NCBI GenBank assembly: GCA_009746045.1
Contig: RPFO01000909.1
Location: 1-64,000 of the forward strand
Source of the DNA: Mesostigma viride
Lineage: Eukaryota > Streptophyta > Mesostigmatophyceae > Mesostigmatales > Mesostigmataceae
Direction of reading: 5' to 3'
DNA: 64,000 nucleotides
Under the pieces are notes generated by a model. It was not told the DNA's origin. It searched no databases and saw only the letters and a list, made by a program, of their open reading frames with translations. Positions 17,961 through 59,393 of this stretch are shown one piece after another. Each line of letters begins with the position of its first letter. Within the stretch, counting starts at the first letter, position 1. The position numbers were made by a program, and so were the translations under genes.

Positions 17961-18302
17961 CTAGTTCTGCATGAGGCCAAACTGGTTGTAAAGACAGTCC
18001 GCAGCGAATATGGTGGAGGTCTTGTAATCCTGTGAAGCTCCTTCGATCTGAGCACTGTCATCACCACCCCCAAGTGACTGGCCCAAGATTCCATGCGCCT
18101 GGCTAAGACCGGTGAACTGCTTCAATTGCAGGTTGAGGAAGTTGCGCCCTGGCCCAGATCCTGGCTGCCAGAACTCTGCACGGACCACCTCCACCTCGAC
18201 CGCGCCCACGTCGGGGACGGTGACCATGACGCGGGTCTTGGTGCGCGCCACAATGAGCCCGGATGCCAGCTTTACCATCGCAGTGCGACCAAGGAGAGGC
18301 TC
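17961..18302 (-). CDS. Terminal exon: C-terminal part of root-cap domain
   Basis: The acceptor ATGTGTGCACAG precedes GAG CCT CTC in phase 0, completing [14 protein letters not shown]. The exon ends at TAG 17,961-17,963. It carries the late motifs of the root-cap/LEA-like family: [36 protein letters not shown] and [13 protein letters not shown]. It has 113 codons before the stop, and no membrane anchor or GPI-like hydrophobic tail follows. Confidence 0.85.
   Translation of the reverse strand, partial: EPLLGRTAMVKLASGLIVARTKTRVMVTVPDVGAVEVEVVRAEFWQPGSGPGRNFLNLQLKQFTGLSQAHGILGQSLGGGDDSAQIEGASQDYKTSTIFAADCLYNQFGLMQN

Positions 18303-59393: not shown

Follow-up and report, generated by a model that had tools for sequence, protein, structure and literature searches.

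A Mesostigma viride gene joins plant-type leucine-rich repeats, a C-type lectin and a root-cap domain with a predicted VWD fold

Do the small exons scattered along one strand of contig RPFO01000909.1 (GCA_009746045.1) of the alga Mesostigma viride belong to a single gene, and what would the product of such a gene do? The window analysed here is the whole stretch of 64,000 nucleotides, positions 1 to 64,000 of this contig. Judged from its sequence, the chain that runs from leucine-rich repeats (LRRs) to a root-cap domain forms a single minus-strand gene, at least between 42487 and 17961. The gene chain, its intron phases, the domains recognised by sequence, the paralogue family and the conserved motifs are shown here. 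On balance we lean towards a secreted, disulfide-rich modular protein that would work as proposed below, with the order: at least five plant-type LRRs, an LRR cap, a four-cysteine module, a C-type lectin, four four-cysteine and three longer cysteine modules, a ferredoxin-like domain and a DPH/root-cap domain with the predicted fold of the von Willebrand D (VWD) domain.

The supported model consists of 17 minus-strand exons, from 58833 to 17961, which join in frame at AG/GT borders in the domain order that had been predicted and encode 888 residues (Table 1). The locus had originally been described as giant; this holds for the gene, which spans ~41 kb or more, but not for the protein, at 888 residues in its supported part. 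LRR exons are of phase 2-2, the cap exon is 2-1, and the lectin exon and every cysteine module exon are 1-1. Because the phases are symmetric in this way, the LRR head can be joined to the lectin arm without a break in frame. Most of the nine phase 1-1 exons (the lectin and eight cysteine modules) were chosen with a phase 1-1 filter and were later borne out by a deposited protein.

A database search retrieved this protein, Mesostigma viride Mv25475-RA.3 (P0001), with 810 aa running from LRR4 to the stop. The last 810 residues of our model are identical to it, letter for letter. P0001 spans 14 exons, of which the first is incomplete, and 13 of the 16 model junctions, among them those that link the LRR cap through a cysteine module with the lectin, and the lectin with the root-cap domain; 12 of these 13 had been placed before P0001 was known. 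For exon 16, the acceptor at 19468 was replaced by 19501 on the basis of the paralogue register and P0001. P0001 is itself a gene model and not a read, and its '-RA' name style presumably points to MAKER. Gene prediction by MAKER with assembled transcripts is described in the part of PMC7027972 available to us; the available part of PMC6947507 also describes RNA-seq evidence and does not contain the word MAKER. Together with the phase pattern, this published model, independent of our chain, upholds one gene from the LRRs to the root-cap domain. A Pfam scan of two long minus-strand frames over 17-31 kb (stops as X) gave no match; the lectin lies in the third, unscanned frame, and an intron splits the root-cap domain.

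We then considered the two putative binding heads. When all six frames were scored with a plant-type LRR pattern, the top five scores (48624, 40730, 57794, 58829 and 42486) were all on the minus strand. Each falls in an exon that encodes one LRR in 72 or 75 nt and is open, bordered by AG/GT and of phase 2-2. A tighter LRR-exon pattern, written after these exons were known, matched nowhere on the plus strand, nor in any of 30 block-shuffled controls. The repeats of ~24 residues carry a GxIP core in all five exons, as expected of plant-type LRRs, and the strong PDB sequence matches of the LRR part are led by plant LRR receptor kinases, in line with the original assignment. In the joined protein, the Pfam LRR matches were all below their curated cut-offs (best LRR_14, E 9.7e-7, 28.3 vs 40 bits). 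The likeness to plant LRR receptor-like proteins and kinases extends to repeats of 24-25 residues with a GxIP-like core, here with one repeat per phase-2 exon of 72-75 nt, and to LRRNT_2 matches in the Mesostigma paralogues. Unlike the receptor kinases, the protein ends with the predicted VWD-fold domain: no kinase was found in Pfam scans of the joined model and P0001, the stop at 17961 follows soon after the root-cap motif, and none of five family C-termini inspected has a hydrophobic tail. On the minus strand of the intron after LRR5 we also noted two near-identical LRR-like fragments (40598 and 39852) that score just under the real LRR exons and probably belong to a duplicated intron stretch.

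The lectin exon matches Pfam Lectin_C at 62.5 bits against a cut-off of 22.6, and its PDB sequence matches are led by mannose-receptor family lectins, which confirms an animal-type lectin. It differs from these closest PDB relatives in having one lectin domain in another architecture, and in its sugar-site motifs, which by eye read EPS and WYTD. In C-type lectins the calcium/sugar-site motifs are EPN or QPD, and WND. The label 'Dickkopf-like', which had been given to some of the cysteine modules, was not borne out; Pfam reported no Dickkopf family in the joined protein at E<=0.1.

Three protein searches yielded 46 proteins, every one from Mesostigma (27/27, 32/32 and 17/17 matches per search); these searches require shared 5-residue words, apply length limits and concern the matches listed, so that absence outside Mesostigma is not implied. 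SDPHF, which keeps the Asp, Pro and His of the GDPH motif and replaces Gly with Ser, is present in 45 of the 46, with more than 170 residues beyond it in 30. The remaining protein, P0010, is without the SDPHF region and joined the set through its lectin domains. Domains were assigned by Pfam scans for 31 of the 46 and from precomputed domains for P0028-P0042. LRR heads with LRRNT_2 matches occur in P0008, P0011, P0015 and P0018, and further LRRs in P0009 and P0020 (Pfam) and P0030 (BLAST). C-type lectin heads occur in P0002-P0005, P0010, P0012 and P0023 (BLAST included), HYR heads in P0003, P0004, P0006 and P0012, RTX repeats in P0022 and P0024 and, as precomputed domains, in P0034, P0039 and P0041, and a subtilase head, also precomputed, in P0037. 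Only P0001 was matched by both the LRR and the lectin queries in BLAST (1/46), a count that may change since many family gene models look truncated; P0011, an LRR protein by Pfam, gave no lectin match. A crude signal-peptide filter was passed by 17 of the 46, including the LRR members P0008, P0011, P0018 and P0030, and because paralogues pass it, the focal protein would likewise be secreted.

The original prediction knew of no described protein with this set of domains. Among the 46 proteins compared this holds for the LRR-lectin pair, seen in one of them, but not for the rest: 44 other proteins share the domain start behind other heads, LRR or lectin included, and the root-cap domain of Mesostigma was already published in 2006, in work that the accessible text of PMC10796529 credits to Nedelcu et al. 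The gene described here thus represents, with two heads, a Mesostigma family, and the C-terminal domain of this family is not new to the literature. Close gene numbers (Mv16018/16051/16054, Mv05235/05238 and Mv20104/20110) suggest that family members are clustered in the genome. In P0019 (Mv26269-RA.2), ubiquitin is fused ahead of the cysteine modules and root-cap domain, probably through a mis-joined gene model.

The two C-terminal folds are both predictions. In P0001, the last domain starts with SDPHF at residue 600 and has FAADC at the C-terminus, as in the DPH/root-cap family (PF06830), whose C-terminal domain of ~200-280 aa starts with DPH and has the Root_cap motif at its end. Root_cap was matched by all eight family domains picked for a DPH-only profile, A4 (E<=0.1, best 1e-12; 52-61% identity to the focal domain), and with the SDPHF start and FAADC end these matches substantiate the root-cap domain of the original prediction. 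We further predict that this domain has a VWD beta-sandwich fold, a match that rests on VIA-align of Foldseek candidates. The first Foldseek rows for the P0007 model include VWD-bearing proteins (MUC5AC D3, RGMB). The Pfam VWD profile matched six of the eight trimmed domains (best E 4.4e-5), five of the eight having been chosen after an earlier match, and the A4 profile searched against PDB matched FCGBP, with the DPH motif at the domain start. In the available part of PMC10796529, the DPH domain is called a beta-sandwich, over 2,000 DPH hits are given across streptophytes, and the term 'von Willebrand factor' is absent; our literature search found nothing linking PF06830 to von Willebrand.

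Ahead of SDPHF lies a domain that is predicted to be ferredoxin-like and carries KRHLLQ. A motif of the R-x-L-L type occurs 60-75 aa ahead of SDPHF in 40 of 45 proteins, where cleavage is putative. Site-1 protease prefers sites of the R-x-L-L type; a literature search found nothing pairing this protease with RRHLL. SEA-type domains, with a beta-alpha-beta-beta-alpha-beta fold and a cut site between beta2 and beta3, were not among the structure-search rows listed. In the LRR paralogues P0008, P0009, P0011, P0015, P0018 and P0030, a second R-x-L-L-like motif (e.g. GRKLL, RRQLL, GRRLQQ) is found just ahead of LRRNT and is perhaps a prodomain cut.

Several results count against these assignments. 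Foldseek alone gave no match for the P0007 model at E<=0.001, and in the focal AlphaFold model the lectin and LRR parts are of low confidence. Pfam VWD was matched at E<=0.05 by 6 of 31 full-length proteins scanned, below its cut-off even for the best (P0017, 21.9 vs 22.9 bits), and was not matched by the focal domain, whose Root_cap score is also under the cut-off (16.7 vs 27 bits). The profile match to FCGBP was obtained by summing over repeats, its best single stretch having 18 residues (i-Evalue 4), and the whole-family profile A2 gave 0 matches in PDB. The focal motif is SDPH and not GDPH, and P0045 is without the Arg of R-x-L-L.

With FCGBP, gel-forming mucins, von Willebrand factor and RGMB the protein shares a VWD fold, here by prediction, with the DPH motif at the domain start, and it would share their extracellular, cysteine-rich setting. 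It differs from them in that neither the joined model (E<=0.1) nor P0001 (E<=0.05) has a Pfam match to C8, TIL or E domains, in ending with the predicted VWD fold, in SDPH for GDPH, in its plant-type LRR head and in coming from a unicellular alga. Published DPH/root-cap proteins likewise have a C-terminal domain with a DPH start and a Root_cap motif at the end, behind other N-terminal parts; here these parts are LRRs, a C-type lectin and cysteine modules, with a predicted ferredoxin-like domain carrying RxLL before DPH, and a VWD relationship is proposed.

How might such a protein work? In our proposal, four steps of which are inferred, the LRR and lectin domains would serve for binding, as heads acquired by shuffling between introns of matching phase. 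The cysteine modules would act as stiff spacers, and the ferredoxin-like and VWD domains would form a processed base within the surface layer. Inside the ferredoxin-like domain, a subtilisin-type (site-1-protease-like) enzyme would cut the R-x-L-L of the beta2-beta3 loop, and as in SEA-type domains the two halves would stay together non-covalently. Where the VWD fold begins, SDPHF may cleave itself between Asp and Pro, as GDPH does in FCGBP. The VWD base and cysteine modules would anchor the heads in the cell surface coat, and the protein would act like a small surface component of the FCGBP/mucin type that bears recognition heads. A putative role in surface recognition or adhesion had been part of the original prediction, and it gains in detail from the predicted VWD fold and the conserved motifs. 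In Mesostigma, scales cover the cells in layers, according to the available text of PMC10762512.

A structural protein, acting in scale or matrix assembly or in stress protection, with an LRR and a lectin that no longer bind ligands, is a possible but rather unlikely alternative. Root-cap/DPH proteins are suggested to protect or oligomerise in the available text of PMC10796529, and the EPS and WYTD read by eye in the lectin depart from the EPN and WND of sugar-binding sites; variable heads on a conserved base across the family, however, fit diversified binding better.

Upstream of P0001, LRR1-LRR3 (58833, 57798 and 48625) continue the repeat in phase 2. We consider it improbable that these three exons are remnants or part of another gene and that the protein starts at the LRR4 Met as deposited. 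P0001 does begin there, and the LRR2-LRR3 intron of 9.1 kb contains transposon-like open reading frames (ORFs), but LRR1-LRR3 are all open, AG/GT-bordered and of phase 2-2 and keep the repeat register, and the P0001 start falls inside the LRR4 repeat, hence without a signal peptide, whereas the LRR paralogues named above pass the crude signal filter. The 5' end of the gene was not found: up to position 64000 no exon convincingly encodes an LRRNT or a signal peptide. Upstream of LRR1, tblastn with 42 family proteins gave weak minus-strand matches alone (E 0.24 and 0.59), and the best LRRNT-profile match seen on the upstream minus strand had E 4.3. The first exon originally placed at 59393 has splice-site candidates and no homology support from either search, and was dropped; the LRRNT cap may be located beyond 64000. 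Over the whole window, the LRRNT profile matched best at 7449 (E 0.033), a place downstream of the gene, and this match was discarded. The transposon-like ORFs, recognised by eye, form a minus-strand cluster at 49259-53077; five of them gave no Pfam match at E<=0.05. One, ORF 50029-50370, includes GDVHPNPGP, which we take to resemble a 2A-like motif, and a second motif that we take to resemble an RNase H motif.

That an LRR gene and an adjacent lectin/root-cap gene were misjoined by gene finders and by our chain is very improbable: other family members do carry LRR and lectin heads separately, the intron 34540-29285 is 5.3 kb long, and the joins come from gene models, with initial or terminal exons between the two parts not searched for systematically, but the deposited model (transcript-informed if from PMC7027972, as far as its available text tells) joins both with identical splice sites, and the cap exon donor is at phase 1, where the next module exons start.

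Table 1. Exons of the supported gene model in the window.
Feature	Positions	Strand	Remarks
LRR1 exon, 75 nt, phase 2-2	58759..58833	-	first supported exon; not in P0001
LRR2 exon, 75 nt, phase 2-2	57724..57798	-	not in P0001
LRR3 exon, 72 nt, phase 2-2	48554..48625	-	not in P0001
LRR4 exon, 72 nt, phase 2-2	42416..42487	-	P0001 start Met inside
LRR5 exon, 72 nt, phase 2-2	40660..40731	-	in P0001
LRR C-terminal cap exon, 104 nt, phase 2-1, adapter from LRR to phase-1 modules	36472..36575	-	
Four-cysteine module exon, phase 1-1	34540..34605	-	in P0001
C-type lectin exon, 420 nt, phase 1-1	28866..29285	-	Pfam Lectin_C E 7.2e-17
Four-cysteine module exon, phase 1-1	27992..28048	-	in P0001
Four-cysteine module exon, phase 1-1	25690..25755	-	in P0001
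Four-cysteine module exon, phase 1-1	24435..24491	-	in P0001
Four-cysteine module exon, phase 1-1	23596..23658	-	in P0001
Longer cysteine module exon, phase 1-1	21968..22105	-	in P0001
Longer cysteine module exon, phase 1-1	21230..21379	-	in P0001
Longer cysteine module exon, phase 1-1	20414..20527	-	in P0001
Exon 16, phase 1-0: predicted ferredoxin-like domain with KRHLLQ, then start of DPH/predicted VWD-fold domain at SDPHF	18777..19501	-	acceptor set with help of P0001
Exon 17, phase 0 to stop: remaining predicted VWD-fold domain, C-terminal Root_cap motif FAADC	17961..18302	-	

Elsewhere in the window, two overlapping long ORFs of 615 and 607 aa lie downstream of the gene on the minus strand (12069-13916 and 13763-15586) and by eye resemble two LINE-type retrotransposon proteins, reverse transcriptase and endonuclease. 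A pyrimidine array of nearly 3 kb (92-3062; unit TCCTTCCCC, ~348 copies) shows a strong strand skew. At 4326-5077, a 102-bp tandem repeat (7.4 copies, 97% match), whose unit is divisible by 3, is open in one minus-strand frame. Four-base simple repeats within the introns of the gene (22122-22493, 35285-35469, 36714-36876 and 41381-41680) yield long spurious ORFs.

Symmetric phase-1 modules are a hallmark of exon-shuffled animal extracellular proteins, and here they occur in Mesostigma, an early-diverging, scaly and unicellular streptophyte. The VWD domain is known from animal mucins, and its predicted fold in this protein hints that a mucin-like surface system existed close to where the land-plant lineage begins. 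Tentatively, and as a possibility more than an expectation, the root-cap domain would be a VWD domain, and Mesostigma would have a mucin/FCGBP-like surface system of dozens of secreted proteins, with interchangeable heads (LRR, C-type lectin, HYR, RTX, subtilase) joined by exon shuffling at matching phases to a common base, which would consist of a ferredoxin-like domain cut by a protease and a VWD domain that possibly cleaves itself; the gene described here would be its double-headed member. Specialists may be surprised by the reading of the root-cap domain as VWD, and by the motifs R-x-L-L and SDPH. Should this VWD reading be right, the module from which animals build mucus and clotting polymers has a version in the land-plant lineage, and root-cap proteins gain a concrete structural and biochemical hypothesis, a polymer or matrix base with Asp-Pro self-cleavage. 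The family provides candidate surface-recognition molecules in an alga with few receptor-like kinases reported (6 in the available text of PMC10868138), and if the proposed system is real, it could be a diversified recognition repertoire in a unicellular relative of land plants.
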